From Bradyrhizobium tropiciagri (GTDB lineage: Bacteria; Pseudomonadota; Alphaproteobacteria; Rhizobiales; Xanthobacteraceae): DNA of 64,000 bases. The notes under the pieces are model-generated. The model was given only the letters and a program-made list of their open reading frames with translations, was not told the DNA's origin and searched no databases. The stretch lies in the NCBI RefSeq assembly GCF_001189845.1, contig NZ_LFLZ01000003.1, positions 186,001-250,000 of the forward strand. The letters are read 5' to 3'. How positions within the stretch are numbered: position 1 is the stretch's first letter; every line of letters begins with the position of its first letter. Positions 744 to 20,627 of this stretch are shown in pieces. Position numbers and translations under genes: made by a program.

Positions 744-1565
744 ATGATTGAATCGCGCGCCAAGATTCTATTTGCCATCGTCCTTGCACTGTTCCTGCCG
801 CGATCGGCCTCTGCCGACCATCCGCTCCAAATCATGCGTGGCACTTACGCGGCCCGCTTCGCACTGATCTCACTGTTCGAGGTCCAACCAGGACATGAGA
901 CCGATTTCCAGACAATTCTAGCGCAATCTGGCCCGTTCAACCACGTTGTTCCAGGCTTTGCCAACGAGCGTGTGCTCGAAATGAGCACGACGGCCAACAC
1001 CGAGCCTGCCGCCGCCAAAACCATAGGGCAGCGCGTGGTTTCAGTGATCCGGTGCTTCGACGCCGAAAGCTGTCAGTACATTATGCAAGAACGGGCGCCG
1101 GCGATCAGAAGTGTACTGCGCAATGACCCGGTCTACACGCCCGTCAAGTTGGTTGCGCATTTGTTTGGTAACTGGAGTTGGGAAAAGCAGGGGGCGGCCG
1201 CTTCGGCCTTTGCAGTCACGATGACGGCGGTCAGCCAATCCCAAAATCTACTGGCACAAAGCGTCTCGCTCTTTGCGCAGCCGAATGTCAGCCTAAGCTT
1301 CCTCAAGGACGGTTATGTCGGCCAACTCGGAATGCTGGAAACAGCGCCAGCCAATTCCGACCTGCAGAGCATTCGAGGCCAACTGCAGCAACGTACCGCT
1401 CTCATGGGCGCCTCAATCTATCAAGCCGATGACAATTCCTACCTGGTCTACAGCGAGTACTTCCAGGCACCGTCCGCAACTAGGTCTGCCGCGCTCAGCG
1501 TCGAAGCGAACAAGTTGCAAGGCGGGCAACTTGGCTCTGTGGTCCAAAACTACGCCGCGCGCTAA
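744..1565 (+). CDS. exported protein with tandem ABM-like (ferredoxin-fold) modules
   Basis: The 273-residue product begins with a clear signal peptide (hydrophobic core about residues 8-20, cleavage near SASA-DH), so it is probably periplasmic. After it, a segment reading FALISLFEVQPGHETDFQTIL has the pattern of small dimeric alpha/beta-barrel monooxygenase or cyclase modules (ABM-like: strand, 'PG.E..F' turn, helix). A second similar module may follow around residue 140. The next gene has the same layout, so the two are probably paralogues acting as a heteromer. The start at 744 has a good site (GGGAGGGAG) about 10 bases upstream. It heads a co-directional cluster with ketosynthases and an acyl carrier protein, suggesting action on the pathway product. 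The function is inferred; no catalytic residues can be assigned. Confidence 0.6.
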   Translation: MIESRAKILFAIVLALFLPRSASADHPLQIMRGTYAARFALISLFEVQPGHETDFQTILAQSGPFNHVVPGFANERVLEMSTTANTEPAAAKTIGQRVVSVIRCFDAESCQYIMQERAPAIRSVLRNDPVYTPVKLVAHLFGNWSWEKQGAAASAFAVTMTAVSQSQNLLAQSVSLFAQPNVSLSFLKDGYVGQLGMLETAPANSDLQSIRGQLQQRTALMGASIYQADDNSYLVYSEYFQAPSATRSAALSVEANKLQGGQLGSVVQNYAAR

Positions 1566-1578
1566 AGGGGAAAAAGCT

Positions 1579-2403
1579 ATGCGCACCATGACACGACGCG
1601 GTTCGTTCATTCTCCTCACTGGGCTCGTCACATTGACGTCGCTTTCGCAACTCGAGGCTCGAACTCGTGTCCGCACGGCGGCTCCTGCCACGAAACTTAC
1701 GGCGCTCGTCGTTCTGTATGACGCTATCCCTGGGCAAGAAGCAGCGCTCGAACGCGAGTTGATGACACCGATATCGCAATCGGACATTGCTCGTTACGGC
1801 ATCGTCAACGACCGAGTTCTCAAAAATATCGATCCGGTGGCCGCCCAGTTCGCGAGCTACACTAAGTTCTCCGGGCGATCCAACAGCAACGACTTCCTTT
1901 CGGCGCGCCTCGACAAGGTCAAGAATCTCGTTCGACGAGCGCCCGAAAACCATATCGTCAAACTCGACAGTACGTTCACGCCAGGCCACCGAACGGATAG
2001 TCCGACCGGCAAGGAATTTGGCTACAAATCTGTGGGCCAGACAGCTCATTTGTTCCTGGGCGTGCCTGCCCCAAAGTTCGAGCAAGACTACGTGAACTCA
2101 TTAGCGCAAGTGAAAACCCTGACGGAGAATCGCTCTCCGCAAGGCTGGTTCGGAGACGACCTGTTGTCCTCAACGGCGCCGCGGTCGGCAGAACAACTCG
2201 CGCCTTATACGCCGCGCCCCGCGGCGTCGACAATGATGTCGATCAACTATGCAGAATATCAGACGTTCGAAGCGGCCGAAGACGCGTATCTGAATCGCCA
2301 GCAGTCCGACGATCCCACCTTCTTACAGTTAGCACGTGTGTTTTTTAGCTCGCTTGAGGTGCCGTCCCGTTTCTACATTTTTAAGGTCGTCGCAAACCGC
2401 TAA
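1579..2403 (+). CDS. exported ABM-like protein, paralogue of the preceding gene
   Basis: I chose ATG 1579, 13 bases after the preceding stop and behind an AAAGGGGAAAAAG ribosome-binding site. The longer open frame upstream is the shadow of the previous gene. The product of about 274 residues starts with a twin-arginine-like signal (MTRRGSFILLTGLV) and then a module TALVVLYDAIPGQEAALEREL. This mirrors FALISLFEVQPGHETDFQTIL in the neighbour. A second module reads QTAHLFLGVPAPKFEQDYV. I infer a periplasmic partner of the 744 product, perhaps binding or reshaping a small hydrophobic compound. No metal or haem motif is visible. Family assignment is by pattern only. Confidence 0.6.
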   Translation: MRTMTRRGSFILLTGLVTLTSLSQLEARTRVRTAAPATKLTALVVLYDAIPGQEAALERELMTPISQSDIARYGIVNDRVLKNIDPVAAQFASYTKFSGRSNSNDFLSARLDKVKNLVRRAPENHIVKLDSTFTPGHRTDSPTGKEFGYKSVGQTAHLFLGVPAPKFEQDYVNSLAQVKTLTENRSPQGWFGDDLLSSTAPRSAEQLAPYTPRPAASTMMSINYAEYQTFEAAEDAYLNRQQSDDPTFLQLARVFFSSLEVPSRFYIFKVVANR

Positions 2404-2430
2404 CTGCCTTGCCTACACTTGGAATCACCG

Positions 2431-3459
2431 ATGTATCAGCGCAAAAGCGAGTGCGTGGTCGCCGTCCATGGTGCCGGAAGCGTTCTTCCTGCTGGGGCGC
2501 TATGGACTGACGTAAATCGCGCAGAGACTGACGCCAACGCTGACAACCAGCGGAGGCTTCGGGACAACTTCCTAGCCGAAGGTACCGGCCTTAGTCGCCG
2601 CGATCTAAAGAAGATCGATCGGATGGCAATGCTAGCACTGTTTGCCGCGCGGTCTGCGATTGAAGAAGCCGCGCTATCTGAAGACGAAATAGCCGGTTGC
2701 GGAATTCTCACAGGTAACGCAGTCGCCGGTTGGTCATTCACCGAGCCGCAATTGCGCTCGCTCTATCAGAATGGCCTTTCCAATATCAGCCCCTATCTAG
2801 CCTCTGCTTGGTTTCCCGCCGCCTCCCAGGGGCAGATTGCTATCCACATGCACTTGCTCGGGTATGCGAAGACGGTCACGACTGACCGCTGTGCTGGAAC
2901 CCAGGCCATCGGGATGGCATACGATGCAGTTCGCGCGGGTCGCGCTACCCATCTGTTAGCTGGGGCAGCCGAAGCACCTGTCACGCCGTTCGTCGAAGGC
3001 GCGGCAAGACATGCGGGCGCGCCGGATATCAACCTTATCGAGGGAGCGGCCTATCTCGTGCTGGGCGAGTCTATGGCTCGCCGCGCGGCGATTGCCGAGT
3101 TGGCGGATCATTCGTCGTTCACCTTGCCGTCCGCAATGTCCGATCGGCTCGCTCTTTGCGCCAAGCAACTGATGCGCCTTTACCAACGCAATTGCGAGGT
3201 CGGGCAACTAGTCGACCTCATGATCGATAGCCGCCAGTCGGCGGACCGCGAGTTGGTCACCATATTGCGAGAGCGCGGCTGGCTGGGCGAAGCGCATTTC
3301 AATGGGACTATCAATGGTGATGCGCTTGCAGCGACCGGCCCGACCGCCGCAGTCACATTATGCCGTCGGTACATCACGACATCGTACAGGTTGCCGGCAA
3401 TCGTATTCTCCCTCGGCCGTGATTTCGCAAGTGCGATCTTACTTCGTCCTCCGCACTAA
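2431..3459 (+). CDS. degenerate beta-ketoacyl synthase, possible KS-beta/chain-length-factor partner
   Basis: The 342-residue protein keeps the thiolase/ketosynthase core. The nucleophile region reads TTDRCAGTQAIG with Cys154, followed by AYDAVRAGRATHLLAGAAEAPVTP. The C-terminal SLGRDFASAILL resembles the usual end of FabF. Both catalytic histidines are lost: the HGT motif is NGT (Asn291), and the GHxxGA motif reads TGPTAA. It is also about 70 residues shorter than FabF. In actinobacterial type II systems the KS-beta partner loses the cysteine, so this is the opposite pattern. It probably dimerises with the intact ketosynthase at 12545. ATG 2431 has GGAATC in front; a TTG at 2419 is an alternative start. 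Cytoplasmic. Confidence 0.75.
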   Translation: MYQRKSECVVAVHGAGSVLPAGALWTDVNRAETDANADNQRRLRDNFLAEGTGLSRRDLKKIDRMAMLALFAARSAIEEAALSEDEIAGCGILTGNAVAGWSFTEPQLRSLYQNGLSNISPYLASAWFPAASQGQIAIHMHLLGYAKTVTTDRCAGTQAIGMAYDAVRAGRATHLLAGAAEAPVTPFVEGAARHAGAPDINLIEGAAYLVLGESMARRAAIAELADHSSFTLPSAMSDRLALCAKQLMRLYQRNCEVGQLVDLMIDSRQSADRELVTILRERGWLGEAHFNGTINGDALAATGPTAAVTLCRRYITTSYRLPAIVFSLGRDFASAILLRPPH

Positions 3460-3474
3460 GAAAGGAAAGCAAAA

Positions 3475-3738
3475 ATGTCAGTCGCTCGAACCGACAAGCT
3501 GGAAAGCGCTGTGGTCGGACTGCTTCGAACTCTGGGGTGCGATGCACCGACAATTTTGCCTGTGCACGATCTTGCGATCGACCTGGGGATCGATTCAACC
3601 GAACTGATCGAACTCGCTATCCTCGTGCGAGATGAGTTTGGCCTCAGCATCAAGCCGGACTTGCGGTCAATGGGAACGGTTTCGGAACTGACAGCCGAAC
3701 TGTCGCGGTTGCTGAAGCAAGAGCAGATCAGTGTCTGA
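3475..3738 (+). CDS. acyl carrier protein
   Basis: This 87-residue acidic, helical protein has the phosphopantetheine attachment motif LGIDSTELIEL, with Ser41 as the acceptor. The size is normal for a stand-alone ACP. The start at 3475 follows a good AAGGAAAG site. It sits between the degenerate ketosynthase and the first beta-propeller gene, and a phosphopantetheinyl transferase that could activate it lies in the same cluster (13780). I infer that it carries the growing chain between the two ketosynthases in the cytoplasm. It differs from the housekeeping AcpP (the usual DSLD motif is DSTE), which supports a dedicated pathway role. Confidence 0.9.
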   Translation: MSVARTDKLESAVVGLLRTLGCDAPTILPVHDLAIDLGIDSTELIELAILVRDEFGLSIKPDLRSMGTVSELTAELSRLLKQEQISV

Positions 3739-6160
3739 GAAGCGCACGCCCTGGTTCATCGCGGCCTCGCAATGGCGCCGTGGTTTTTCGCTTGCAGAGG
3801 CCATCGCACTTGGTGGCATCCTGGGCGGTTGCCTCGGGATCGCTGTGGGTTCGGCCGAAACCATGCAAGGCGCGAGCCACGTCGTCAAGATGACCGATGC
3901 GGCTCCATACTTCAGTGAACCCGATCTGAATATCGCGGTCGGCGATTCAGTCGAATGGGTCAACGAGGGGCCGGAAAAAAAGCACATCGTTACCGACAAG
4001 CAGATGAACATGTTTTCCGGGTCGATCGAGATCAAGGATAGATGGAAGTACACTTTCGACCACGCCGGGATCTATGAAATAATCTGCGGTCAGCACTACT
4101 ACATGCGGTCTCGAATAGCGGTGCACAACGCCGATGGTTCGACCGAACGACGCTTCGAGTTCCCCTACCAGACTGCTTTCAAGGAGTTCGTTATCCCCAC
4201 GCCGGACGCTGTCCCGCGGATGATCATCAAGAGCAAGCTCGACAAGTCGATGTGGTTCACGATTGGCGGCGGCGGCTTCTACGGCTTTGAGGAGTTTCCG
4301 GCACAAAACAAACTCGCCCAAGTCACGGACGATGGCCAGTTTATCGAATATTCAACTCCTGCGCCGGATCACGATGGCTCCAAAGTGGGCGTTGATTCTC
4401 TAGTGATGGCCGACAACGGGGATATTTGGTTCACCGAGCGGTTGACCAATCGGATTGGTGTGCTGCGCGACGACGGCGTCATCAACGAATTTCAGATTCC
4501 AACTCCCGATGGTTACGCGTTGGGCGTCGATATCGACGCACACGGAAATATTTGGTTCGCCGAACGTCTGGGCAACCGGATTGGCTTCATTACCCCGGCC
4601 GGCGCAATTACCGAAATCGAAATGCCAAAGCCAAATTCCGAGCCGCGAACGATCTACGTGGATACCCGTGGGCGTGTCTGGTACACCGCGCGCGAGGCGA
4701 ACGAGATTGGCTACTACGACACGGGAACCAGGAGTTTCAATCACATCCTCATCCCGACAAAATTGGCGCGACCCGCTGGCATCGCTGAGGGCAAGGACGG
4801 CGCAATCTACTTCGTCCAAATGGTCGGCAACAAGATCGGTAAGATCGATGCGGACAAAGTAACCGAATATACGCTCCCAACCTCGTTCTCGGCGCCATTC
4901 AAGATCGTCGCCGACGACCAGGGAATTCTGTGGTTTACGGAGGTTTACGGAAATGCGATCGGCCGCTTTGATCCGCAGACCGGCGCGATCACGGAATATA
5001 AGATTCCTACCAAAGACAGCCGACCCGGCGGCATTTCGGTCGACGGCCAAGGGCGGATCTGGTTCATTGAGCAGAAGGGCAACAAGGTCGGCTATCTCGA
5101 TTCGAAGATGCTGCCCGGTCTCTCGAAGAACCAAAGTGCTGAAAAACAGAAGTCACCAGCGAGCCCGATCTCATTCGATAGCCGCGGGCCCGAGCTCGAA
5201 CAGGAAATCCGGCAGCTTGGCGTTCGGACCAATTTCTCCATTCCGGTGCCTGGCGCCCATCCGGGCAGTTCCCTGGTCGAGGATCGAAGCAAGCGCCTGT
5301 GGTTTCCCCTAATACTTGCCAACAGGGTCGCGGTTTACGATCGCAATTCGGGCGGCTACCGCGACTACCAGATGCCCACCGACATCAGCATGCCGACGGC
5401 GCTGGATATCGACCGCGCTGGTGATGTGTGGATCGCGGAATTTCGCGGTAACCGCCTAGCGCGTCTGGCCATGGATACCGGTCATATCTCTGAATATGAG
5501 ATCCCCATCGCCAATGCGCTTCCGAGCGGCGTGGCTATCGACGAGTCCGGCACGATCTGGACCACCCTTCTCAACGGCAATAGCATCGAGGCGTTCGACC
5601 GGACCACCCAGGGCTTCAAGAATTACCCACTGCCGCGCGCGGACAGTTCGCCGCTGAGCGTTATCGCCGATGGTCATGGTAGCCTGTGGGTGTCGGCGTC
5701 GAATGAAGATAACAGCTATCTAGCGCGCTTCGACCTCGCCTCGCGTCGCTTTGAAACTGTCGAACTTCCAGTCGAGCGGGCCGTTCCAGTCGGAATGATG
5801 GCGGGTAAGGACGAACTGTGGGTTGCGCTTGGAGGCGTAGGCGTCATTGCCCGGCTCGACACGGCTACGCGCAGCTGGTCGCAGTACCCTGTGCCCGGAT
5901 CGAGCTCCGAACCGGCAATGCTAGCTCGCGGACGCGACGGCAGGATCTGGGCTACCGACGGGGGAGGGCTCGGTTCTACCGGTGGAAACCAACTCGTCGT
6001 GGTGGATCCAAAATCGGGCTCGATCGGCACCGTGCCTATGACAACGCGCGAAGCAAAGCCAATGGGGATTCTCGCGGCGTCTGACGGTCAGATTTGGTTC
6101 ACCCAGCAAGGTGCCAATCGATTGTCGAGCATCGGTATTACAGAAGGGAGCAGGCCGTGA
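3731..6160 (+). CDS. exported cupredoxin fused to two seven-bladed Vgb-like beta-propellers
   Basis: The GTG start overlaps the acp stop by 8 bases. The N-terminus has a basic stretch and one hydrophobic segment (about 20-40) containing LGGC, so it is either a membrane anchor or a lipoprotein signal. Residues 48-133 form a cupredoxin with a complete type 1 copper site: His85, Cys119, His122 and Met125 (CxxHxxM spacing as in amicyanin). Then come 14 repeats of the 'IWFTE..GNRIG.. ITEY.IPT' type, seven before and seven after a linker around residues 465-505. That makes two complete propellers. The repeats resemble streptogramin B lyase (Vgb), but histidines are rare in them, so lyase activity is not supported. 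I infer periplasmic electron transfer joined to ligand binding. Confidence 0.85.
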   Translation: MSEKRTPWFIAASQWRRGFSLAEAIALGGILGGCLGIAVGSAETMQGASHVVKMTDAAPYFSEPDLNIAVGDSVEWVNEGPEKKHIVTDKQMNMFSGSIEIKDRWKYTFDHAGIYEIICGQHYYMRSRIAVHNADGSTERRFEFPYQTAFKEFVIPTPDAVPRMIIKSKLDKSMWFTIGGGGFYGFEEFPAQNKLAQVTDDGQFIEYSTPAPDHDGSKVGVDSLVMADNGDIWFTERLTNRIGVLRDDGVINEFQIPTPDGYALGVDIDAHGNIWFAERLGNRIGFITPAGAITEIEMPKPNSEPRTIYVDTRGRVWYTAREANEIGYYDTGTRSFNHILIPTKLARPAGIAEGKDGAIYFVQMVGNKIGKIDADKVTEYTLPTSFSAPFKIVADDQGILWFTEVYGNAIGRFDPQTGAITEYKIPTKDSRPGGISVDGQGRIWFIEQKGNKVGYLDSKMLPGLSKNQSAEKQKSPASPISFDSRGPELEQEIRQLGVRTNFSIPVPGAHPGSSLVEDRSKRLWFPLILANRVAVYDRNSGGYRDYQMPTDISMPTALDIDRAGDVWIAEFRGNRLARLAMDTGHISEYEIPIANALPSGVAIDESGTIWTTLLNGNSIEAFDRTTQGFKNYPLPRADSSPLSVIADGHGSLWVSASNEDNSYLARFDLASRRFETVELPVERAVPVGMMAGKDELWVALGGVGVIARLDTATRSWSQYPVPGSSSEPAMLARGRDGRIWATDGGGLGSTGGNQLVVVDPKSGSIGTVPMTTREAKPMGILAASDGQIWFTQQGANRLSSIGITEGSRP

Positions 6161-6654
6161 ATTCATTCCATTCCTCCGTTACTATCGCGCGCAACGTCAC
6201 CGAGGTTATGGCGGCCTTCTGGAGATTGGAGGAATGGCCAAAGATCACCGCGCACGTGCGCGCAATCGATCTTCTGTTCGATGACGAGAATGTGCAGGTA
6301 CTTTTGATGCACGTCGACTCGCGTGGCAAACGCGACGTCTTCAAATCGGTCCGCGTCAGGCAGGCTAACGTCATTTTCTATTTTCAGCCGGTACCACCTC
6401 CAACTCTGAAATTCCACCGCGGTGCTTGGGAATTCGAAGCCGTGCCGACTGGAACGCGAGTGACGTGCCGACACGAGATAGTCGCTGATCCAAACGGCTG
6501 TCGCCAGTTCTTCCTCAATACAGGGCTCGAACTTGAGGCGAACGCCGCCGTCGTCAAACTTGAGGATCTCATCAAGAACAACAGCAACCAGACCATGGAA
6601 GCGCTGAAGCGCAGCCTGGAAGCCATTGCGGTCGCCCAAGAGGCCGCCTCATGA
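6157..6654 (+). CDS. START/SRPBCC-family polyketide cyclase-like protein
   Basis: The start is GTG 6157, overlapping the previous stop (GTGA) and preceded by AAGGGAG. The 165-residue product reads as a Bet v 1/START fold: an N-terminal strand SFHSSVTIARNV, a helix VMAAFWRLEEWPKI, repeated strands ending in RVTCRHEIVAD, and a long C-terminal helix. This is typical of coenzyme Q-binding and polyketide cyclase/aromatase proteins. There is no signal peptide, so it should act in the cytoplasm. Between the ACP and ketosynthase genes its most likely job is folding, cyclising or aromatising the ACP-bound chain. START folds also act as lipid carriers, so the reaction is not certain. Confidence 0.75.
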   Translation: MNSFHSSVTIARNVTEVMAAFWRLEEWPKITAHVRAIDLLFDDENVQVLLMHVDSRGKRDVFKSVRVRQANVIFYFQPVPPPTLKFHRGAWEFEAVPTGTRVTCRHEIVADPNGCRQFFLNTGLELEANAAVVKLEDLIKNNSNQTMEALKRSLEAIAVAQEAAS

Positions 6655-8792
6655 TCATTCGCGATCTGTCTCGGACTAGGAAAGCCGCTTGGATCGCCGC
6701 GACCACGCTCGTCCTGGGTCTAGGGCTTTGTGATGTATGCGCAGCTGGGGAGCCGGGCGGCGCGGTAACGAGCCGTACGACGTCCGTCAATTTCGCCAGC
6801 CACATAGGTTTATCGTCGTTGGGCCAAAAATTCACCGTCTCAACCTACGACGTGCCAACGGCTGATGCCGTTCCGCATATCCTAGCGATCGACTCCGAAG
6901 ACCATGTGTGGTTCAGCGAAAGTGGGGGGCGTTTTGCGGGAAAATTCCTTGACGTTCCCCCGCAAAGCAAGATCGGCCGCATAGAATCTAACGGCGCGAT
7001 CACCGAATGGTCCTTGCCAGGTGAAGAAACGAGCCCGATGGGCGTGCTCTTCGACCGCAAAGGCTATCTCTGGATCGCCGAGCGGCTTGGCAACCGGATC
7101 ACACGGATGTCGTACGACGGCGCCGTTACGTACTTCCCCGTGCCGACCCAGGGATCCTGGCCGACCGGTCTCGCCTTCGATTCGCAAGGAGGTGTTTGGT
7201 TTACCGAGACCAAGGGAAACAGGATCGGGCGCGTGGATCCGTCAACTGGCCAAATCGAGGAATTTCCCTTTAAGCCAGAGGGCATGTCGGCGACGGGCAT
7301 CGCGATCGACAGTCGCGACCGTGTCTGGGTCGCCGGCCGCGACGCGAACATCATTGCTGAATGGGATCCACAGAGCAGGGAATTTCAGTACTTCCCACTA
7401 TCCACGCCGAACGCCAAACCGTGCGGTATCGTCGTCGATGCCCGTGATCGTGTCTGGTTCACTCAGCGCAACGCCGGCAAACTGGCCACGATTTCTGTCG
7501 ACGGACACATTCAAGAATTCGCGTTGAAAGAGATGAAAACCGGGCCGTTCCTGCCGGTGGTTGATCGCCAGGGCAACATCTGGTTCAGCCAAATTTGGTC
7601 GAACAAGGTCGCCAAGTTCAATCCTGAAGCGCGGGAATTCGAAGAATTCCAGGTCGCCGATGATATCAACCATGTCGCGGGCCTGGCTATCGACTCACGC
7701 GGCAACGTCTGGTTTGCCTCGCAAACAGGCAACAAAGTCGGCACCATCGCGCGACAAAATCTCACTTATTTCGGTGCCGACGACAAAACCCCAGTTGAGG
7801 AGCGGTTGGCCGTTAATGACTCGGACAAGTTCGACTTCCGCTCGTTGGAAGTGCCGACCAAGCAGTCTGTTCCCGGGATTGTTGAGGTCGCGCCCGACGA
7901 CACAATCTGGTTCACACAGATGGGCGGCGGCTTTGTCGTGCCTGGTTTCCCTCCCGGACCGCCGGGACAAAAGATCGGATACATCCGCGACGGAGCGATA
8001 GCGGAATTGGCCACGCCCACGCCCGAGTCGGGGCCGACTTCGATGGCGATCGACTCTAAGAATGGCGATGTTTGGGTAACGCTGCGCTCCGCCAACAAGA
8101 TTGCACTCGTCCGCAACTATACAGTGACGGAATTTGATTTGCCGGTCGCCAATACGTTGCCAGTGGGAATCACCGTAGACGGCGAGCATAACGTCTGGGT
8201 CGCGCTCAGTACGATCGGTGCAGTAGCGCGCCGAACTCCGGACGGCGAATGGCGAGTGCTCAATTTGCCGCATCGCGACGGGAACCCGCGCACGATCTAT
8301 GCCGATCGCTCAGACACCATCTGGTACACAGAGAAAGACGGTAATCGGCTGGGAGTAGTGAATCAGTCGGACTGGACCGTGCGTGAGTGGACGATCCCCA
8401 CCCGCGTGGCGTGGCCCTTGTCTCTTTCGGAAGATGACGCGGGCAATATCTGGTTTGCTGAAATGCGCGCGGACAAGCTCGCCCGTTTCGACCGCAAGCT
8501 CGAAAAGATTGAAGAGTTCAAGCTCCCAGCCCACTCCGCGCCCTTCAAGATTCTATTCGATCAGAGCAAGCAATTGTTCTGGATTTCGACAGTGTTCGGC
8601 AATTCCGTCCTGCGGTTCGACATCGGTCGCCAAAAGGCCACTGCTGCTTTCCGCGTTCCCCACGAGGGAGTGTGGCTTGGCGGTATCGCACGCATGAGCA
8701 ACGGTTGCTTCTGGGTCACCGAACAATTTGGCAATCGCGTGGATCAACTGTGCATACCAGAAAACTATACCAAGCGAGCAAGTGCTCCTTGA
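6651..8792 (+). CDS. exported double beta-propeller protein (Vgb-like)
   Basis: ATG 6651 overlaps the preceding stop as ATGA. A signal peptide (hydrophobic core about 12-30, ending CAAG) exports the 713-residue protein. The body has 14 blade repeats built on 'VWF.E..GNRIGR', seven up to the VGTIARQNLTYFG segment (about residue 365) and seven after it, so again two complete propellers. Unlike the 3731 product it has no cupredoxin. Blade 1 and blade 8 share a longer insert (RFAGKFLDVPPQ and FVVPGFPPGPPGQ), which indicates an internal duplication of a whole propeller. Cysteines occur only near the ends. I infer a periplasmic binding or maturation factor; an enzymatic role is possible but unproven. 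Confidence 0.8.
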   Translation: MIIRDLSRTRKAAWIAATTLVLGLGLCDVCAAGEPGGAVTSRTTSVNFASHIGLSSLGQKFTVSTYDVPTADAVPHILAIDSEDHVWFSESGGRFAGKFLDVPPQSKIGRIESNGAITEWSLPGEETSPMGVLFDRKGYLWIAERLGNRITRMSYDGAVTYFPVPTQGSWPTGLAFDSQGGVWFTETKGNRIGRVDPSTGQIEEFPFKPEGMSATGIAIDSRDRVWVAGRDANIIAEWDPQSREFQYFPLSTPNAKPCGIVVDARDRVWFTQRNAGKLATISVDGHIQEFALKEMKTGPFLPVVDRQGNIWFSQIWSNKVAKFNPEAREFEEFQVADDINHVAGLAIDSRGNVWFASQTGNKVGTIARQNLTYFGADDKTPVEERLAVNDSDKFDFRSLEVPTKQSVPGIVEVAPDDTIWFTQMGGGFVVPGFPPGPPGQKIGYIRDGAIAELATPTPESGPTSMAIDSKNGDVWVTLRSANKIALVRNYTVTEFDLPVANTLPVGITVDGEHNVWVALSTIGAVARRTPDGEWRVLNLPHRDGNPRTIYADRSDTIWYTEKDGNRLGVVNQSDWTVREWTIPTRVAWPLSLSEDDAGNIWFAEMRADKLARFDRKLEKIEEFKLPAHSAPFKILFDQSKQLFWISTVFGNSVLRFDIGRQKATAAFRVPHEGVWLGGIARMSNGCFWVTEQFGNRVDQLCIPENYTKRASAP

Positions 8793-8822
8793 TCGTGTGC
8801 AGCTTTGTCATGGAGCGGTGTG

Positions 8823-12528: not shown

Positions 12529-12544
12529 TCCGAGAGGGAAGACA

Positions 12545-13780
12545 ATGTCGCGCAGGGTGGCGGTGACCGGTCTTGGCGTCGTATCGCCGGTAGGTGTCGG
12601 TACGGAATCGTTCTGGTCGGCTGTCAAAGCCGGCAACAATGGTGTGACCGAGATTCCTGCATCGATTCTGCAGATTCTTCCGGGCCTTCGAACCCGGTCG
12701 GCGGCAGGCATATCGGAGCATTGGCTCGCTCAGCCAAAGGGTTCTGGCGCGCGAGTCGAGCGGCTCGGCACCATTGCCTTTCGCCAAGCTCTTGATGACG
12801 CTGGGCTCGCGAGCCTGCAGGACGTAAGCAGCGGTCTCGTGTTCGGTACGGCCGTCGGGGATACCGCCGGCATGGAACGCAGTTTCGTCAGTATTGACGA
12901 GCGCGGAGCGTTCGACTTCACTAAGGCCGACACCCATCTATTCAATACAATGCATTTTCATGCGACCGCCGCGGAATGGGCGCGCTCATCTCGCTGCGAG
13001 GGGCCGACGATCGTGGTCTCGACCGGTTGCACAGCGGGAATCGATTCATTCGGCATTGCGTTCGATCTAGTTCGGAATAATAGGGTTGATGTGGCGGTCT
13101 GCGGCGCCGCAGACGCTCCTTTGACCCCCATCGTTTTCGCGGCATTCGATGCGCTTGGTGCATTGTCCAAACGCGACCATGATGTCACTCGCGCCTCGCG
13201 TCCGTTTGACCGCACTCGCGACGGCTTCGTACTCGGCGAGGGCGCCGGAGTTCTCGTGTTGGAGGAATACGAGCATGCGCTCAGGCGGGGCGCTAAGATT
13301 TACGCCGAAGCAAGCGGCTTTAGCTCGCTGAGCAACGGCTTCCACATGACGGACCTGCCGTCGGACGGTAAAGCGTTGGCTCGTTGCTTCGAACAGGCTA
13401 TTCTTGATGCCGGAATAAGAGCCTGCGAGATCGATTGCGTCAATGCACATGGCAGTTCTACCAAGCAAAATGACGTGTGCGAGACTAGCTCCATCGCGGC
13501 TGTGCTTGGCGATCAAGCTGAAAACGTATCAGTTAATTCGCTGAAGGCGATGGTCGGACATGCCCTCGGCGCGTCGAACGCTATCGAACTTGTGGCTTGT
13601 GCCCTCAGTATTCATGAGCAGTTCGTGTTTCCCACGATCAACCTCGATCATCCCGACCCGGACTGCTATCTCGATTATGTTCCCAATCGTGGGCGCAAGC
13701 GGCGCATCAGGCATCTCGCAAAATTGAGCAACGGATTTTCCGGAATCCACTCGACGGCCATTCTGAGTAGGGCCACGTAG
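12545..13780 (+). CDS. beta-ketoacyl-ACP synthase II (FabF type), catalytically complete
   Basis: ATG 12545 follows a GAGAGGGAAGA site, 17 bases after the previous stop. The 411-residue protein has the full ketosynthase triad: Cys162 in VSTGCTAGID, His302 in NAHGSSTKQND and His339 in VGHALGAS, with Lys334 in NSLKAM. The N-terminal RRVAVTGLGVVSPVG is classic for FabF/KS-alpha. It should condense malonyl-ACP with the chain on the cluster ACP. The degenerate ketosynthase at 2431 is the likely heterodimer partner, although the two genes lie 9 kb apart, unlike the adjacent KS-alpha/KS-beta genes of Streptomyces. No reductase or acyltransferase gene occurs in the cluster, so those steps may come from primary fatty-acid synthesis. 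Confidence 0.92.
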   Translation: MSRRVAVTGLGVVSPVGVGTESFWSAVKAGNNGVTEIPASILQILPGLRTRSAAGISEHWLAQPKGSGARVERLGTIAFRQALDDAGLASLQDVSSGLVFGTAVGDTAGMERSFVSIDERGAFDFTKADTHLFNTMHFHATAAEWARSSRCEGPTIVVSTGCTAGIDSFGIAFDLVRNNRVDVAVCGAADAPLTPIVFAAFDALGALSKRDHDVTRASRPFDRTRDGFVLGEGAGVLVLEEYEHALRRGAKIYAEASGFSSLSNGFHMTDLPSDGKALARCFEQAILDAGIRACEIDCVNAHGSSTKQNDVCETSSIAAVLGDQAENVSVNSLKAMVGHALGASNAIELVACALSIHEQFVFPTINLDHPDPDCYLDYVPNRGRKRRIRHLAKLSNGFSGIHSTAILSRAT

Positions 13781-14448
13781 TGAAGCACGAGACCGACCAG
13801 AACGTTGATACCCTAGTTCAGTGTCCGGTCGGGGCGCTGGTCCTGGTTTCGCTGAAAAGGCTCCGGATCGTCTTCAGCATTGGCCGGACGCCTCAGATGC
13901 TAACCGGTTGCGAGGTTGCTCTCTGGCAGCGTCTGCAAACCGATCGGCGCCGACTCGAATTTATCGGCGGTCGTCTTGCCGCGAAACTTGCTATCGCGCG
14001 GTTGTCGACCGACAACATTGCGTTGTGCAACATCGAGGTGGCGCGGTCAGAAAGTGGAAAGCCGGTCGTGCGTGGAATGATGGGACCTGTCACTGAGGTC
14101 TCAATTTCGCATACGCGTGAGTGGGCCGTGGCGCTGGCAGTTCCTGGGCAAGCTCCGTGTGGTATCGACATCGAAGATCGGACTTCGCGGGTACGACTGT
14201 CCGGCGACTACTTTCATAAGTCTGAAATCGAACTCGCCGCCAGAATAGGTCCGAAGCGGCATTGGGTGCTCAAGGAAGCCCTGGCGAAACTGAGCAGCAA
14301 GGGGCTTGGCGGGGATCCGCATTCCGTCAAACTTGTTGAAGCCCGATCTCCCTCCGAAGCGGCAATATGCCAACGTCAGTCGACTGTTCATGCCTTCTCA
14401 GGCGTGCGCCGTTCGCTTGCGGTGGGAATTGCGCTCGGTCGAACTTGA
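13780..14448 (+). CDS. 4'-phosphopantetheinyl transferase
   Basis: The GTG start shares one base with the ketosynthase stop (TAGTG). The 222-residue protein has the Sfp-type motifs GIDIED (Asp130, Glu132, magnesium binding) and HWVLKEALAKL (Trp162, Lys165, Glu166). Its N-terminal half, about 110 residues, is the pseudo-repeat typical of Sfp-like enzymes and not of the shorter AcpS. It transfers phosphopantetheine from coenzyme A to Ser41 of the cluster ACP, making the holo form. A dedicated transferase beside an ACP and ketosynthases is strong support for a real secondary-metabolite pathway. Confidence 0.9.
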   Translation: MKHETDQNVDTLVQCPVGALVLVSLKRLRIVFSIGRTPQMLTGCEVALWQRLQTDRRRLEFIGGRLAAKLAIARLSTDNIALCNIEVARSESGKPVVRGMMGPVTEVSISHTREWAVALAVPGQAPCGIDIEDRTSRVRLSGDYFHKSEIELAARIGPKRHWVLKEALAKLSSKGLGGDPHSVKLVEARSPSEAAICQRQSTVHAFSGVRRSLAVGIALGRT

Positions 14449-14479
14449 GTTGTGGGAAGTCAAACCGGTATTTGTTACG

Positions 14480-15091
14480 ATGGGCCAGGAAATAAAGTGC
14501 AAGGTGGTAGTTGGCGGCCGCAAGGCCGAAGGGCGCCTCCAACTCGAGACGGAGCGACTGTATTTCCGCTCGCCAACTGAAAAACTAGACGTCGCGACGA
14601 AAGATGTGAAGGTCAAGGCCAGCAAAGGCGTGTTGTTTGTCAGCATTGGCAAGACCCAATACGAGTTCGAACTTGGCGCGGTCGCCGAGCGATGGGCGGA
14701 TCGCATTCAGAATCCTAAAAGCTTAGTTCAAAAACTCGGCGTGAAAGCCGGCGCATCCATTGTAGCCATTGGTCGCCGGGATGCAGAACTCATCGACGAG
14801 TTGAAGAAGGTCGGCGCAAAAATATCAGCAAGGAAAGGTGGCAAAGACCACGACTGGGTGTTTGTTGGCGTGGAGCAACCCGGCGACCTCAATTTGCTAG
14901 AAGGTTTGACAGATACGATCAAGTCGAACGGCGCTGTCTGGATCATATTCCCGAAGGGCCGCTCCGACCTGAAAGCCGAGCACCTTATCGCAACTGGAAA
15001 GGCGAATGGCCTTGTCGATACGAAGGTCGCGCGTGTATCGGACCGGTTGACCGGCATGAAGTTCGTGATTCCTGTCAAACAGCGGAAATGA
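14480..15091 (+). CDS. DUF3052-like protein
   Basis: I chose ATG 14480 because the upstream open frame overlaps the transferase gene in another register. The 203-residue product has an N-terminal beta-rich segment (GQEIKCKVVVGG to about 75). After it comes a Rossmann-like domain reading LVQKLGVKAGASIVAIG, AVWIIFPKG and GLVDTKVARVSDRLTGMKFVIP. This second part follows the pattern of DUF3052 proteins of unknown function. Charged and without a signal peptide, it should be cytoplasmic. Nothing in the sequence indicates a reaction; similar domains elsewhere are small nucleotide-fold proteins. Its place between the transferase and a START protein suggests a pathway accessory. Confidence 0.65.
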   Translation: MGQEIKCKVVVGGRKAEGRLQLETERLYFRSPTEKLDVATKDVKVKASKGVLFVSIGKTQYEFELGAVAERWADRIQNPKSLVQKLGVKAGASIVAIGRRDAELIDELKKVGAKISARKGGKDHDWVFVGVEQPGDLNLLEGLTDTIKSNGAVWIIFPKGRSDLKAEHLIATGKANGLVDTKVARVSDRLTGMKFVIPVKQRK

Positions 15092-15101
15092 TGGTGAGCA
15101 A

Positions 15102-15629
15102 ATGACGATAGCCTTTGTTGTTGTCGCAATTCTGGTCCTGCTGATTGCTGCGGTATTCGGTATTGGTGCGGCGTTGCCGAAGGAGCACCGCGCAGAGGTT
15201 GATGCCGTCGTACCGCTCAGTCCGGATCACCTATGGAAACTTATCGCTGATCCAAGCCAAGCGACAAAGTGGCGAACTGATCTTGCAAGTGCAGAGGAGA
15301 TCTCTCCAAACGTTGTGCGCGAGACCTCCAAAAAGGGTGAAGCCATGACGTTCGAGACGATGCACAGCGATCCACCGAACGTTCTTGTGCGTCGGATCGC
15401 GGATACCAACCTGCCGTTCGGCGGACAATGGAGAATCACCATCGACCCGGATCAGGGGCAGTCGCGGATTAACATCGTCGAAGACGGTTTCGTAAAGCCT
15501 GCCTTGTTCCGATTTGTATCGCGCTTTGCGATGGGCCACGACCGCACGATCAAGAATTTCCTGAGTGACCTGAAGGATTACAGCAGCAAGTTGTCTGCTT
15601 CTTCGGACGAATGGACTAGGAAGGAGTAA
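15102..15629 (+). CDS. membrane-anchored SRPBCC/START-domain protein
   Basis: ATG 15102 lies 10 bases after the previous stop with GGTGAGC in front. Residues 3-25 form one hydrophobic helix, a membrane anchor. The rest is a START-like domain (EHRAEVDAVVPLSPDHLWKLIADPSQATKW is the usual N-terminal strand-helix-helix, then repeated strands). The C-terminus is charged. It is the second START protein of the cluster and differs from the 6157 product by its anchor. The domain may face the periplasm and receive or shield a hydrophobic product at the membrane, but topology cannot be settled from sequence. Length (175) is normal for such proteins. Confidence 0.7.
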   Translation: MTIAFVVVAILVLLIAAVFGIGAALPKEHRAEVDAVVPLSPDHLWKLIADPSQATKWRTDLASAEEISPNVVRETSKKGEAMTFETMHSDPPNVLVRRIADTNLPFGGQWRITIDPDQGQSRINIVEDGFVKPALFRFVSRFAMGHDRTIKNFLSDLKDYSSKLSASSDEWTRKE

Positions 15630-15634
15630 ACTCC

Positions 15635-16792
15635 ATGAATCGTCGCGGCGTATTGCTCCGACGTTTCTTTTCAATCGGCGTCACGGGTTTGCTTACACTT
15701 TGCGGCGGAGTCTTGGTGGATGCGAGGCCGTTGAACTCCGAACTCTCCGACGTCGATCCGCTTTTTGCACCGCTCCAAGATCGTCAGGCACCGCCTGTCG
15801 ATGCTCGCAACGTCGAACAAATCGAATTAGGAAAGATGCTGTTTTTTGATACGCGCCTGTCTGGCGACGCTTCGATTTCGTGCGCCTCGTGCCACGATCC
15901 TGAGCAAGGTTGGTCCTTCGCTGACGAGCTTTCACGCGGGTATCCGGGGACTGCGAACTGGAGAAACAGCCCGACCATCGTTAACGCAGTATTTTTGCGT
16001 CGGTTTTTCTGGACAGGGCATGCTCCGACGCTAGAAGCGCAGGCGAAGGCCGCTGGTATGGGTGCCATTGAGATGCATGGCACGCCAGGTCTCGTCGAAT
16101 TGCGCCTTGCGGCCATCCCCGAATATCGCGAACGTTTTGCCCGCGCGTTCGGCGGCGAGATACCGAAGAGCGATGACGTCTGGCGCGCGATCGCTGCCTT
16201 CGAACGGACACTGACACAAACCGACACGCCGTTCGATCGCTTCCTACGCGGCGACAGAACGGCTTTGGATGAGAGTCAGGTCAGGGGATTCTCCCTCTTC
16301 AAGGGCAAAGCGGGTTGCGCGCGCTGCCACCATGGGCCGCTTCTTACAGACGAGCAATTCCACAACACCGGTGTTCCCGCAAGCACGCGTTGGCGGACCG
16401 ACACACTTGCCCGCATCAGTTTCAACTTCATGCAGGCTGAACTAGGTGAGGCTAAGGCGGGGCTAAGTGACGACGCAGGGTTGTTTCTATTCAGCAAGCG
16501 CCGGGAAGACCTGGGAAAGTTCCGAACGGCCCCGCTTCGCTACACCAAGTACACCGCACCATACATGCATAACGGCTCCTTGGCCGACTTGCGTCAGGTG
16601 GTCGAGTTCTATAACGGCGGCGGTGATGTCAATCCCTTCAACGACAACAAGGATGTCAAAATGTCGAGGCTGAACCTCTCGGACAGCGAGATAGCCGACC
16701 TCGTTGATTTCCTAGAGTCGCTAAGCGGCGATGAAGTCCGGGTCACAAAGCCAAGGCTTCCCTCCTATCCGGCGCGACCGGTTGACGACTAG
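15635..16792 (+). CDS. di-heme cytochrome c peroxidase / MauG-family protein
   Basis: The start follows GGAAGGAG. A signal peptide (VTGLLTLCGGVLVDA) exports the 385-residue protein. Two c-type haem sites are visible: CASCH (Cys83, Cys86, His87) and CARCH (Cys228, Cys231, His232). They are followed by KYTAPYMHNGSL, whose Met311 is the usual distal ligand of the high-potential haem in peroxidases; MauG has Tyr at that position. The protein is therefore closer to bacterial cytochrome c peroxidase, but the two are one family. It would take electrons from a small periplasmic carrier, and two cluster proteins have type 1 copper sites. Substrate: peroxide, or oxidation of the cluster product or a partner protein. 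Confidence 0.92.
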   Translation: MNRRGVLLRRFFSIGVTGLLTLCGGVLVDARPLNSELSDVDPLFAPLQDRQAPPVDARNVEQIELGKMLFFDTRLSGDASISCASCHDPEQGWSFADELSRGYPGTANWRNSPTIVNAVFLRRFFWTGHAPTLEAQAKAAGMGAIEMHGTPGLVELRLAAIPEYRERFARAFGGEIPKSDDVWRAIAAFERTLTQTDTPFDRFLRGDRTALDESQVRGFSLFKGKAGCARCHHGPLLTDEQFHNTGVPASTRWRTDTLARISFNFMQAELGEAKAGLSDDAGLFLFSKRREDLGKFRTAPLRYTKYTAPYMHNGSLADLRQVVEFYNGGGDVNPFNDNKDVKMSRLNLSDSEIADLVDFLESLSGDEVRVTKPRLPSYPARPVDD

Positions 16793-16797
16793 GCGTA

Positions 16798-17577
16798 ATG
16801 GCTATGTCAAGGCGGGCCCGTCAGCAGTTGTTGCGCGTCATAGCGGGAGGATTCCTGGTCGGATTGTCAGGTGGTCTCTTGTTGGTGAGGTCCCAAGCCG
16901 GAGTCCCCGAAGGGGTATATCAAGCAGTTGAGCTTGCCGATGCTGGCAGCATTGTTGGCGAGGTGCTGCGGCCGTCGGGCGAGGGAGAAACAGAGGAATT
17001 CCCTGTCAACAAAGACTTCGCCGCGTGCGGCAAGGAACCGCGGCACATAGAGTGGGTACGCGTCAAGGACGGCCGGCTTTTGGATGCCGTGGTTTTTATC
17101 GACCGCATTGGATCGGGTAAGCCATTTTCAGCGGCAGAAGACACGGTAGCCTTGCGACAGACTCATTGCAGTTTCGAGCCGCAGCTGCAAATTGTCCGCG
17201 ATGGCGGAAATCTCGAACTGCGTAACCTCGATCCAGTCATGCACAGCGCCCGGATCTACGAGGTTATCCAGTCAGCGCGGCGTCAAATCCTCAATGCAGT
17301 ACAGGATCGCGACGCCGATCCGATCTCGACCGTGATAGGCGCTACTCGCGGAAACGCCGTGAAGATCGAATGCGGTGTTCATGATTTTATGTATGCCTGG
17401 ATCTTTGTTGCTCGCAATCCCTACTATGCCGTGGTGGACGACCGCGGTGTCTTTCACATCGACAATGTACCAGCCGGGACGTACCGCCTTCGAGCGTGGC
17501 ATGGGCGGCTAGGGTACCGAGAGACGAAAGTGGTCATCTCCGCGCGAGAACAATCTCACGTTGAGTTCATTTACTGA
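16798..17577 (+). CDS. exported single-copper cupredoxin with C-terminal regulatory-like beta domain
   Basis: This 259-residue protein follows the peroxidase by 5 bases. A hydrophobic N-terminal segment (14-35) anchors or exports it. A full type 1 copper set is present: His149 in NLDPVMHSAR, then CGVHDFM with Cys192, His195 and Met198 (CxxHxxM). The strand VFHIDNVPAGTYRLRAWH after the site resembles carboxypeptidase regulatory-like domains often paired with methylamine-utilisation type plastocyanins. I infer that it is the electron partner of the di-heme peroxidase. Its last bases overlap the end of the convergent regulator gene. ATG 16804 is an equally possible start. Confidence 0.8.
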   Translation: MAMSRRARQQLLRVIAGGFLVGLSGGLLLVRSQAGVPEGVYQAVELADAGSIVGEVLRPSGEGETEEFPVNKDFAACGKEPRHIEWVRVKDGRLLDAVVFIDRIGSGKPFSAAEDTVALRQTHCSFEPQLQIVRDGGNLELRNLDPVMHSARIYEVIQSARRQILNAVQDRDADPISTVIGATRGNAVKIECGVHDFMYAWIFVARNPYYAVVDDRGVFHIDNVPAGTYRLRAWHGRLGYRETKVVISAREQSHVEFIY

Positions 17578-18505
17578 GGCGGCTAGGGTCGTTGGGCGCT
17601 CGGTTTTTCTCTTGGGACGGCCCTGCCAATTGAGCCAGGCGCGCTTCAAAGTGCGATGTCGCTCGCGCAATATCCTGGCGCATAGCGCTGAGCGCGCGTG
17701 AGATCATTTCCTGATCTAACGCAACTCGAAAACTGGTCCTGTTAAAAGGCTTCCCGGTACGAGTCTGCTGCTTAGCAATCCGTTCAGCCAATGCAGTTGT
17801 CTCGGGCATTGGTGAGATGTTGAATGTTGTGGCAAGCGTCCGCCTATAAGTATCATATTGTCGCACCGCTGCGGCACGATTACCCGTCGCGGTGTAACAC
17901 TCCATCAATTTGACATGGATGTGCTCGGCGAAGGGATCGTAGATCAAGAATCGAATCCCAAGCTCGATGGCTTCACGGTAACGCTTCTCAGCTGCGTTGA
18001 TGTCAATCATCTCCTCCAGGACAGACAGATAACGCGTCCTGTAAAGCTCGCGATGATAGATACACCAATCTGCGTCGATGCCTTCCAGCAAGTCACCGCT
18101 GTACAATGAAGTCGCCTTTTGAAGACGCTCGAATTTGTCCGCTGTCTCGTTGCTCAAAATGACATCGAATTGCTCGAAATCGACCAAGCATTCCAGTGCG
18201 GGTACGAAACTTAGTCCCGATCCTGTCTCTGCAAATATTGCCTTGGCATCTTCATGAGCGCTGCCAAATATTGTGCGGATGCGCCACAACTCGGTACGAA
18301 GCGAACCCTGACCTTGAGTTAAGTCACGATCTGGCCAAAATAGCTCGACCAGATACTCCCTTCGGAAGAAGCGCCCTCTATTCAAGATTAGGAAATAGAG
18401 TAGTTTTTGAGCACGAGCTGTATGGAAATGCTTTAGCTCGCGCCCGCCGACCGAAATTCGTGCGCCGCCAAAAAAAGCCACTGAAATTTTAGGTTTGGGA
18501 GGCAT
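17567..18505 (-). CDS. SARP-like transcription regulator with bacterial transcriptional activation domain
   Basis: The 312-residue protein has an N-terminal winged-helix (about 7-100) with the SARP pattern: RAQKLLYFLILNRGRFFRREYLVELFWPD, then LRTELWRIR. It is followed by a helical BTAD region (about 115-250: YSGDLLEGIDADW, RYREAIELGIRFLIYDPFAEHIHVKLMECY). This architecture is well known in Streptomyces antibiotic regulators. It is unusual beside a type II ketosynthase cluster in an alphaproteobacterium. The C-terminal 60 residues are extra and helical. It converges on the cluster, overlapping the copper-protein gene by 11 bases, and is the only regulator nearby, so I infer that it activates the cluster. 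Confidence 0.85.
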   Translation of the reverse strand: MPPKPKISVAFFGGARISVGGRELKHFHTARAQKLLYFLILNRGRFFRREYLVELFWPDRDLTQGQGSLRTELWRIRTIFGSAHEDAKAIFAETGSGLSFVPALECLVDFEQFDVILSNETADKFERLQKATSLYSGDLLEGIDADWCIYHRELYRTRYLSVLEEMIDINAAEKRYREAIELGIRFLIYDPFAEHIHVKLMECYTATGNRAAAVRQYDTYRRTLATTFNISPMPETTALAERIAKQQTRTGKPFNRTSFRVALDQEMISRALSAMRQDIARATSHFEARLAQLAGPSQEKNRAPNDPSRLSK

Positions 18506-18577
18506 GCGAACTCCCTAAGATTGTATTGCAGTATGCAACAACCATAGCGAAGTTATCGTAATTTGCGAGTCCCAAAT

Positions 18578-18970
18578 TTATGAGATCCGCTGGGTCCTGG
18601 AGGCAACCACTGCTGCCGCAGCCCTTTCTGCTGCCGGGTCAGCCGCTGGCTTGGGCTGCGTAGGGTGGATGTCGATCGCCTTCGGGATCTCATCCCTCAG
18701 GAATGGAAGTTTCAAGGTGACGACCGGCTTTCCGGCTTCCTTCTTGGCCCAGTGGCCTCGTGGAGGATAAGGCACGTCCAGCTTGTCGCAGACCTTGGCG
18801 AGACCGTTTCCTGTGATCCCGAATTCCTCGGCAAGCCGAATAATCGGCTTAAGCCAAACCATCCGGTACAGTTCTTCGCGCGTAACGCGCCGTGCATGGG
18901 AAGGTGTCGGTACTTCCACCGTTGTTCGCTCCCGGTTAGGTCTTGAAGGGGCAAAGTTCCGGCACAGCAT
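18578..18970 (-). CDS. probable truncated helix-turn-helix-like hypothetical protein
   Basis: The 130-residue product contains SREELY-type text (VTREELYRMVWLKPIIRLAEEFGITGNGLAKVC) and VPYPPRGHWAKKEAGKPV. This is the N-terminal signature of a rhizobial hypothetical family with a helix-turn-helix-like start. As I recall those proteins are longer and continue with a large C-terminal region. Here the frame ends about 60 residues after the signature in an Ala-rich tail, so the gene is probably cut short. It stands alone between the cluster regulator and the ImmA gene. No operon partner is evident. Function unknown. Confidence 0.5.
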   Translation of the reverse strand: MLCRNFAPSRPNRERTTVEVPTPSHARRVTREELYRMVWLKPIIRLAEEFGITGNGLAKVCDKLDVPYPPRGHWAKKEAGKPVVTLKLPFLRDEIPKAIDIHPTQPKPAADPAAERAAAAVVASRTQRIS

Positions 18971-20480: not shown

Positions 20481-20512
20481 GGCATCCTCTTATCTTATTG
20501 ATTCATAGTCCA

Positions 20513-20586: not shown

Positions 20587-20627
20587 TAGCGTGACGCTCG
20601 CGTTGCGGGCCCGAAAAGGAACAAGAT

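Follow-up and report, generated by a model that had tools for sequence, protein, structure and literature searches.

Why would the genes of a type II polyketide synthase (PKS) be interleaved with genes for exported propeller, copper and haem proteins, and do both sets serve a single pathway? The question is raised by a gene cluster at positions 744-18505 of a 64,000-nucleotide stretch, hereafter the window, of the 9.77-Mb genome of Bradyrhizobium tropiciagri (RefSeq assembly GCF_001189845.1, contig NZ_LFLZ01000003.1, positions 186,001 to 250,000). An initial annotation, made from the sequence alone, had described the cluster as a polyketide/fatty-acyl system joined to a periplasmic copper/haem module and had read the two as one pathway. 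Here we report that the type II PKS machinery (ketosynthase (KS), chain-length factor (CLF), acyl carrier protein (ACP), phosphopantetheinyl transferase (PPTase), aromatase/cyclase, cyclase and AntI-type hydrolase) is inherited together with the exported propeller, copper and haem proteins. On balance we consider it likely that the cluster is one biosynthetic unit, in which a phenol would be made by the type II PKS, exported and oxidised by copper/haem proteins in the periplasm to a pigment-like product.

A type II polyketide synthase interleaved with exported propellers

Sixteen genes (g1 to g16; 744-17577) lie on the forward strand with intergenic gaps of -8 to +31 bases, as expected from the earlier description of a co-directional and tightly coupled set; that description does not hold for the regulator (g17), the sole cluster gene on the opposite strand, 3' of the sixteen-gene run. 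A Pfam scan confirmed a KS, the CLF (as a KS), an ACP, a PPTase, two SRPBCC proteins, a PF04199 cyclase, three propeller proteins of the Vgb type and a dihaem protein. All of the synthase parts previously proposed within 744-18505 (ACP, intact KS, PPTase, two START proteins and a cyclase-family gene) were present.

The KS-alpha (g11; 12545-13780) was closest among PDB entries to 6smo_B (E = 1.4e-98), part of what we take to be the Photorhabdus AntDE:AntF complex, ahead of the actinorhodin KS (1.9e-86) and FabF-type entries (1.3e-76 and weaker). Its catalytic triad is complete (Cys162, His302 and His339), with the Cys in all five aligned rows and each His in all four rows reaching it. The gene once labelled a degenerate ketosynthase (g3; 2434-3459) is instead a CLF (KS-beta): its best PDB match was 6smo_C (2.8e-22; next FabF-type entry, 1.5e-16), an Arg replaces the KS Cys in 5 of 5 aligned rows, and it matched the second KS-like protein of an Azospirillum plasmid PKS (108 bits) better than the KS of that system (64 bits). 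It also has in common with the second KS-like proteins of Azospirillum, Priestia and two Lactobacillaceae the stretch WFPAA.QG. In a 51-row tree, the five CLFs of the propeller-cluster family formed one clade (100/99; several CLF branches were long), as did its five KSs (100/99), which fell inside a 21-row KS set, apart from FabF (100/99). With CLF residues kept across five genomes, a decayed KS was rejected. The ACP (g4; 3475-3738; PF00550) has its DS motif in all five aligned rows, and the PPTase (g12; 13780-14448; PF01648 and PF17837) has a 34% identical orthologue in a Woeseiaceae metagenome-assembled genome (MAG). The cluster combines three features of a type II PKS: a KS-alpha with Cys-His-His, a CLF without the catalytic Cys and a separate ACP.

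Three further genes would act on the chain that this synthase builds. The START aromatase/cyclase (g6; 6160-6654) ranked BexL (7.4e-7) and then StfQ (3e-4) as its nearest PDB entries and was 38% identical to the second half of the Azospirillum SRPBCC protein. The PF04199 cyclase (g10; 11746-12528; Pfam) was 58% identical to its Shewanella and 56% to its Acidobacteria counterpart, and was absent between g9 and the KS in Woeseiaceae and Pseudolabrys. The alpha/beta hydrolase (g8; 8805-9893), previously called FrsA-like, scored 16 bits against a FrsA cut-off of 22, and a FrsA esterase was rejected accordingly; its closest solved structure was AntI (6hxa; 3.7e-8, 36 bits), and a Ser-Asp-His triad and GLD motif occur in 4 of 4 rows. 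The same triad and motif are described for AntI and fungal Yg1p, which have a polyketide-trimming role in common (PMC11165489). Pfam recognised none of the sixteen genes as a ketoreductase, a dehydratase or an adenylating gene. Of the two product types first proposed, then, polyketide stands and fatty-acyl falls: the aromatase/cyclase and AntI-type relatives, together with the lack of a recognised ketoreductase or dehydratase, led us to reject a fatty-acyl or aryl-polyene system, and the gene content identifies the synthase as a predicted aromatic type II PKS. An aromatic product is likewise suggested by the aromatase/cyclase and AntI-type genes.

Between the CLF and KS genes lie three exported proteins, all matching PF24684, in agreement with the three exported propellers first noted. 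They comprise an amicyanin-like cupredoxin joined to two Vgb-type propellers (g5; 3731-6160), a double Vgb-type propeller (g7; 6651-8792) and a Vgb-type propeller with a C-terminal cupredoxin-like domain (g9; 9890-11749). The amicyanin-like assignment of g5 draws on TIGR02657 (25.4 bits, below the cut-off of 110.2) and on a PDB amicyanin (7.9e-6), with the ligands of an amicyanin-like type 1 copper site in all four readable rows. Alignment found both of the previously noted type 1 copper sites intact, one in g5 and one in the blue-copper protein g16 (16798-17577), and the C-terminal domain of g9 is without CxxH ligands in 4 of 4 rows, the window included. At the positions of His228, Glu268 and His270, presumably the Vgb catalytic residues, the first propeller of g5, the only one to which this comparison applies, carries Phe, Arg and Gly. 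The fold family is that of Vgb (PF24684); with lyase-model scores for g5 of 398.9 and 282.7 bits, both under the cut-off of 600, and the first-propeller catalytic residues replaced, a streptogramin lyase was rejected.

Conservation of the cluster in other genomes

Searched alone against genome contigs, g3 found no match; the five-row CLF alignment then gave 324 matching stretches, of which 237 were relatives, and the best 80 were kept (41 of the 80 loci with 5 kb on both sides). Propellers stood beside the CLF in 4 of the 80 loci, and these were the four best CLF matches: a Pseudolabrys MAG, Shewanella hanedai, an Acidobacteria MAG and the Woeseiaceae MAG. The remaining 76 had no propeller match above 60 bits, within flanks that reach 5 kb on both sides in only 41 of the 80. 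A fifth genome, a second Shewanella species (G1370:C1:3400100-3432000), was found by the propeller g9 alone, yet carries the complete PKS, with the whole cluster and its efflux genes. Both of its flanks match those of S. hanedai, so the cluster seemingly occupies the same genomic site in the two species.

Gene order was closely retained. On one contig, the Woeseiaceae MAG carries the SARP regulator, g1, g2, CLF, ACP, g5, g6, g7, g8, g9, KS, PPTase, two fused MauG-type units and g16 (the gap between its PPTase and MauG-type genes, on contig C25 of G1072, holds an opposite-strand open reading frame that by eye resembles a metallo-beta-lactamase-fold protein). S. hanedai, also on one contig, has CLF, ACP, g5 split in two genes, g6, g7, g8, g9 and g10, followed by a cytochrome c with three CxxCH motifs, KS, a multicopper oxidase and efflux genes that look MacAB-like by eye. 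The Pseudolabrys copy spans two contigs (CLF, ACP, g5, g6 and g7, g8, g9, KS), as does that of the Acidobacteria MAG (g1, g2, CLF, ACP and g5 on the first; the end of g9, seen by eye, g10, a cytochrome, KS, a multicopper oxidase, g13 and g14 on the second), g6 to g8 not being on the contigs examined. The distance from CLF to KS was 9,086 bases in the window, 8,426 in Woeseiaceae (to the start of the KS match) and 10,547 in Shewanella.

The single-pathway reading had been open to refutation on two grounds, that the genes are not conserved together or that the propellers always occur without ketosynthases. Neither was borne out. KS, CLF and propellers, with ACP, aromatase and hydrolase where the contigs reach, recur together in five other genomes from two phyla, and because the set recurs in this way that refutation fails. 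As for the second ground, g9 at E ≤ 1e-60 occurred in 1 of 297 genomes of the window's order (its own only), 2 of 117 Shewanella and 1 of 147 genomes of the Woeseiaceae MAG's order (the MAG itself), and in none of the three sets did it occur in a genome without the PKS. Both results support a single pathway.

The propeller genes were conserved about as well as the synthase genes, judged by alignments and dN/dS. Identity of g7 to three orthologues was 50-74%, and dN/dS between the two Shewanella was 0.017-0.19 in 15 of the 16 genes tested, with g7 lowest (0.017), the CLF at 0.125 and the ACP at 0.189 (the cytochrome gene was left out, as the coordinates used for the second Shewanella held one stop).

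Two interchangeable forms of the oxidative module

Around this fixed core the oxidative proteins come in two forms. Form 1, in the window and Woeseiaceae, consists of an exported MauG-type dihaem protein (g15; 15635-16792; PF03150) and an exported blue-copper protein with a carboxypeptidase-regulatory-like domain (g16; PF14686). The dihaem protein has two CxxCH motifs and, by alignment, a Tyr where cytochrome c peroxidase (CCP) has Met, a position at which MauG presumably also has Tyr. The initial call of a di-heme peroxidase is corrected in that a CCP-type peroxidase was rejected by this MauG-like Tyr ligand. We call g15 MauG-like and not MauG because its TIGR03791 score of 209.5 bits is under the curated cut-off of 443.85. 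It was 55-56% identical to the C-terminal half of the fused pair in Woeseiaceae, where g16 has a 38% orthologue; the copper motif H...CxxHxxM of g16 is present in both aligned rows.

Form 2, in the two Shewanella and Acidobacteria, consists of a cytochrome c and a laccase-type multicopper oxidase, with Pfam support for the oxidases of S. hanedai and Acidobacteria and for the cytochrome of Acidobacteria; the Acidobacteria oxidase was 61% identical to that of Shewanella. The window cluster has no laccase-type oxidase by Pfam, and at E ≤ 1e-20 the Woeseiaceae genome had no relative of the multicopper oxidase and the Acidobacteria MAG none of g15, while the g15 relatives in S. hanedai are on contigs other than that of the cluster. 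A scan of viral contigs with g15 was unproductive. This exchange of the oxidant around a fixed PKS-propeller core is our main new evidence that extracytoplasmic oxidation is the module's job, and it strengthens the view that the product may be oxidised in the periplasm.

Proposed pathway and alternative explanations

In the pathway that we propose, the KS/CLF pair would build a poly-beta-keto chain on the ACP, and since the window cluster has no ketoreductase, the chain would stay highly oxygenated. The START and PF04199 proteins would fold and aromatise it, and the AntI/Ayg1-type hydrolase would take the intermediate off the ACP and trim it to a naphthol- or anthrone-type phenol, as AntI is described to remove its substrate from the ACP, trim it and close a ring (PMC11165489, PMC12186476). 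The phenol would then be exported, for which the genes directly after the Shewanella cluster are candidates, and in the periplasm the propellers may act as a scaffold that binds and orients it while a copper/haem oxidant (the MauG-type and blue-copper proteins in form 1, the multicopper oxidase and cytochrome c in form 2) converts it to a quinone or couples it to a dimer or polymer. In lineages that have it, the exported ABM-like pair (g1 and g2) probably aids oxygenation. By analogy with dihydroxynaphthalene (DHN)-melanin and scytonemin, we infer that the trimmed phenol leaves the cytoplasm and is then oxidised or coupled in the periplasm. Most likely the product is a pigment-like aromatic that is located at the cell surface and has a protective role. 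A more specific version, in which the cluster is a bacterial counterpart of both systems, with a phenol coupled on periplasmic propellers by either a laccase or a MauG-type/blue-copper pair, we put forward tentatively, as somewhat more doubtful than not.

Several observations weigh against this proposal. As far as is known, the substrates of MauG-type proteins are mostly proteins. In the window cluster no gene for an exporter was identified, the match of g8 to AntI is remote (36 bits), and no exported ABM-like genes stand beside the two Shewanella clusters. In the Pseudolabrys MAG, no relative of g15 was found at E ≤ 1e-20, and the only multicopper oxidase, 37% identical, is on another contig. 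MAGs make up three of the five other genomes, and in two of these MAGs the cluster is divided between two contigs. The scytonemin analogy is weakened by the score of g9 against the ScyE model NF033206 (26.1 bits, below the cut-off of 80), and a 2016 study had questioned whether ScyE takes a direct part in the final steps of scytonemin formation (PMC4870267).

Other explanations give the exported proteins a different task. They might serve holding or self-resistance, with propellers that bind or open the product and copper/haem proteins that only balance redox stress, and the propellers do belong to the streptogramin B lyase family, a resistance family; however, the replaced residues of the first g5 propeller (Phe, Arg and Gly at the presumed Vgb catalytic positions) and the sub-threshold lyase scores (398.9 and 282.7, below 600 bits) speak against it, and we regard it as unlikely. 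We rate as comparably improbable that the product is a copper or iron metallophore and that its metal is put in or taken out by the periplasmic proteins. The presence of a MauG/MbnH-like protein and of two type 1 copper sites would suit this, as MbnH has a role in the maturation of a copper-binding protein, and an open reading frame resembling a TonB-dependent receptor (by eye) lies about 6 kb beyond g16 in Woeseiaceae; but Pfam found no receptor or metal importer among the window cluster genes, and inspection by eye showed none within the clusters of Woeseiaceae and Shewanella, and a laccase-type oxidase replaces the MauG/blue-copper pair in three genomes.

A MauG-like Tyr, an amicyanin-like domain and Vgb-type propellers also recall methylamine dehydrogenase, where such a combination is known, and could mean that the MauG-type protein and cupredoxins modify a propeller protein itself, giving it a protein-derived cofactor with which it acts on the polyketide. 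Since no small subunit of the tryptophan tryptophylquinone (TTQ) type was recognised in the cluster by Pfam, and the propellers are conserved where g15 relatives are off-cluster (S. hanedai) or not found at E ≤ 1e-20 (Acidobacteria MAG), we think this a little less probable again. That two unrelated operons, whose functions do look dissimilar, are adjacent by chance is the least credible by far: the window, Woeseiaceae and the two Shewanella, each with a contiguous copy, all retain the interleaved order CLF-ACP-propeller-aromatase-propeller-hydrolase-propeller-KS, and the two-contig copies fit the same order, which refutes chance adjacency.

Comparison with known systems

Several known systems come close to the cluster. 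The best solved matches of its KS, CLF and hydrolase (6smo_B, 6smo_C and AntI 6hxa) come from the Photorhabdus ant cluster, the type II PKS for the anthraquinone AQ-256; the available sections of the source, however, mention neither exported propellers nor copper or haem proteins there, and AQ-256 is formed by spontaneous oxidation (PMC12186476). Fungal DHN-melanin synthesis (PksP, Ayg1, Abr1/Abr2) resembles the Shewanella and Acidobacteria form in pairing a PKS with a trimming hydrolase and a multicopper oxidase; Yg1p hydrolases trim to THN, and in the Aspergillus fumigatus cluster ayg1 is accompanied by a laccase as well as a multicopper oxidase (PMC11165489). The present cluster differs in having a type II and not a type I PKS, in its propellers, in the lack of a recognised reductase or dehydratase and, in the window, in a MauG-type protein where the fungus has a laccase. 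The scytonemin scy/ebo system offers a likeness in its cytoplasmic monomer, export and periplasmic propeller-clan protein (PMC6282210, PMC4870267), ScyE, a periplasmic protein of the beta-propeller clan, being held in 2018 to dimerise the exported monomer oxidatively (PMC6282210); scytonemin, however, is an indole alkaloid and not a polyketide, and g9 falls under the ScyE cut-off.

Among other type II PKSs, the Azospirillum system has KS, CLF, ACP, ABM, SRPBCC and PPTase genes in common with the cluster, and the plasmid-borne Bacillota systems KS, CLF, ACP, a PF04199-type cyclase and SRPBCC. Both differ in that KS and CLF are adjacent and that no propeller, copper or haem proteins are annotated in the stretches examined. 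The Azospirillum locus, on plasmid ABSP7_p3 of A. brasilense Sp7 (8796-21347), encodes a KS 45% identical to g11, a CLF, an ACP, four ABM proteins, two short-chain dehydrogenases/reductases, an SRPBCC protein, a PPTase and a resistance-nodulation-division (RND) pump; plasmids of Priestia, Lactobacillus gasseri and Apilactobacillus kunkeei combine a type II PKS with kynurenine-formamidase/cyclase-family genes and SRPBCC or polyketide-cyclase genes. Candidatus Omnitrophota MAGs commonly held a KS/CLF pair with a PF04199-type cyclase nearby, and a cyclase match was present in 65 of the best 80 CLF loci of all origins. One Gammaproteobacteria MAG carries KS, CLF, aromatase, cyclase and an AntI-type hydrolase (26% identical to g8) at 1501-10018 of a 12.3-kb contig that has no propeller match.

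Aromatic type II polyketides are usually thought to be finished in the cytoplasm and to come mostly from actinobacteria. The present family is Gram-negative, is found in two phyla and has retained genes for exported propellers in the stretch from CLF to KS. It predicts that there is a new class of compounds, that Vgb-type propellers have a further role and that laccase and MauG-type oxidants have been swapped in nature. If the reading holds, this would be, to our knowledge, the first type II polyketide family finished outside the cytoplasm; we likewise know of no earlier case in which Vgb-type propellers or MauG-type proteins take part in making a polyketide. Because one host, S. hanedai JCM 20706, is a named strain, the reading is directly testable.

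Rarity and genomic context

The cluster is rare and horizontally spread. At E ≤ 1e-82, g11 was found only in its own genome among 265 genomes of the genus and among 385 of the class, whereas among 398 of the phylum two genomes matched, the other match being a FabF in an apparent fab operon; these figures are approximate, as at most 4-6 candidates were scored per genome. For g3, the best foreign match among 196 other relatives (5e-15, 32%) was an ordinary KS. In a published catalogue of type II PKS clusters, KS/CLF pairs separated by over 2 kb are filtered out, and in its main text the words copper, propeller, peroxidase and Bradyrhizobium do not occur (PMC10132072). The window pair lies outside this limit and, with gaps of 8.4-10.5 kb, the catalogue would miss the propeller-cluster family; the filter could be why the family is absent from it. 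We take the 2-kb limit to be a gene-order filter and not a biochemical criterion, and accordingly file the synthase as a type II PKS and the whole cluster as a new variant. Among the matches listed from the open-access literature, by title and start of abstract (subscription papers fall outside this scope), none described the gene set.

The G+C content of the cluster is 0.576, compared with 0.640-0.659 in 56 overlapping stretches of equal length from the remaining window, which fits recent arrival. Insertion at the adjacent tRNA-Arg was considered and rejected, its 18- and 22-base ends having no exact copy downstream on the forward strand of the window.

The first two genes of the run, g1 (744-1565) and g2 (1579-2403), encode exported proteins with no Pfam or NCBIfam match. 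They are homologous to each other (profile-profile probability 94.7) and have orthologues in Woeseiaceae (31% and 43%) and Acidobacteria (27% and 36%). The low-confidence model of g2 (mean pLDDT 44.6) resembles ABM folds in its first domain, including WhiE-ORFI (9lmn; E = 4e-5), and its profile matched the Azospirillum ABM proteins weakly (E = 5e-4, probability 31); the model of g1, also of low confidence (pLDDT 49.9), returned nothing at E ≤ 0.001 in a fold search, and its profile did not match those proteins (E = 0.39). The two exported ABM-like proteins first reported are thus a homologous pair for which, with a model of this confidence, the ABM label is plausible and not proven.

Downstream of the PPTase, g13 (14480-15091), presumably DUF3052-like, had no Pfam match and has a 36% orthologue in Acidobacteria adjoining g14. 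The latter (15102-15629; PF10604) is a START-fold protein with an N-terminal membrane anchor recognised by eye; it had no significant match in a PDB search and likewise has a 36% orthologue in Acidobacteria. The predicted SARP-like regulator was recovered as a SARP-type (BTAD) protein (g17; 17567-18505, reverse strand; PF03704), with a 31% orthologue immediately upstream of g1 in Woeseiaceae. Beyond it, an IrrE-like peptidase (PF06114) and an XRE-type regulator (PF01381), a pairing frequent on mobile elements, adjoin the cluster on the reverse strand (19138-20480), and an AcrB-type RND pump lies 31 kb from it (49948-53103). Elsewhere in the genome, contig C1 carries another KS cluster, which by eye resembles an ordinary acyl-chain operon.

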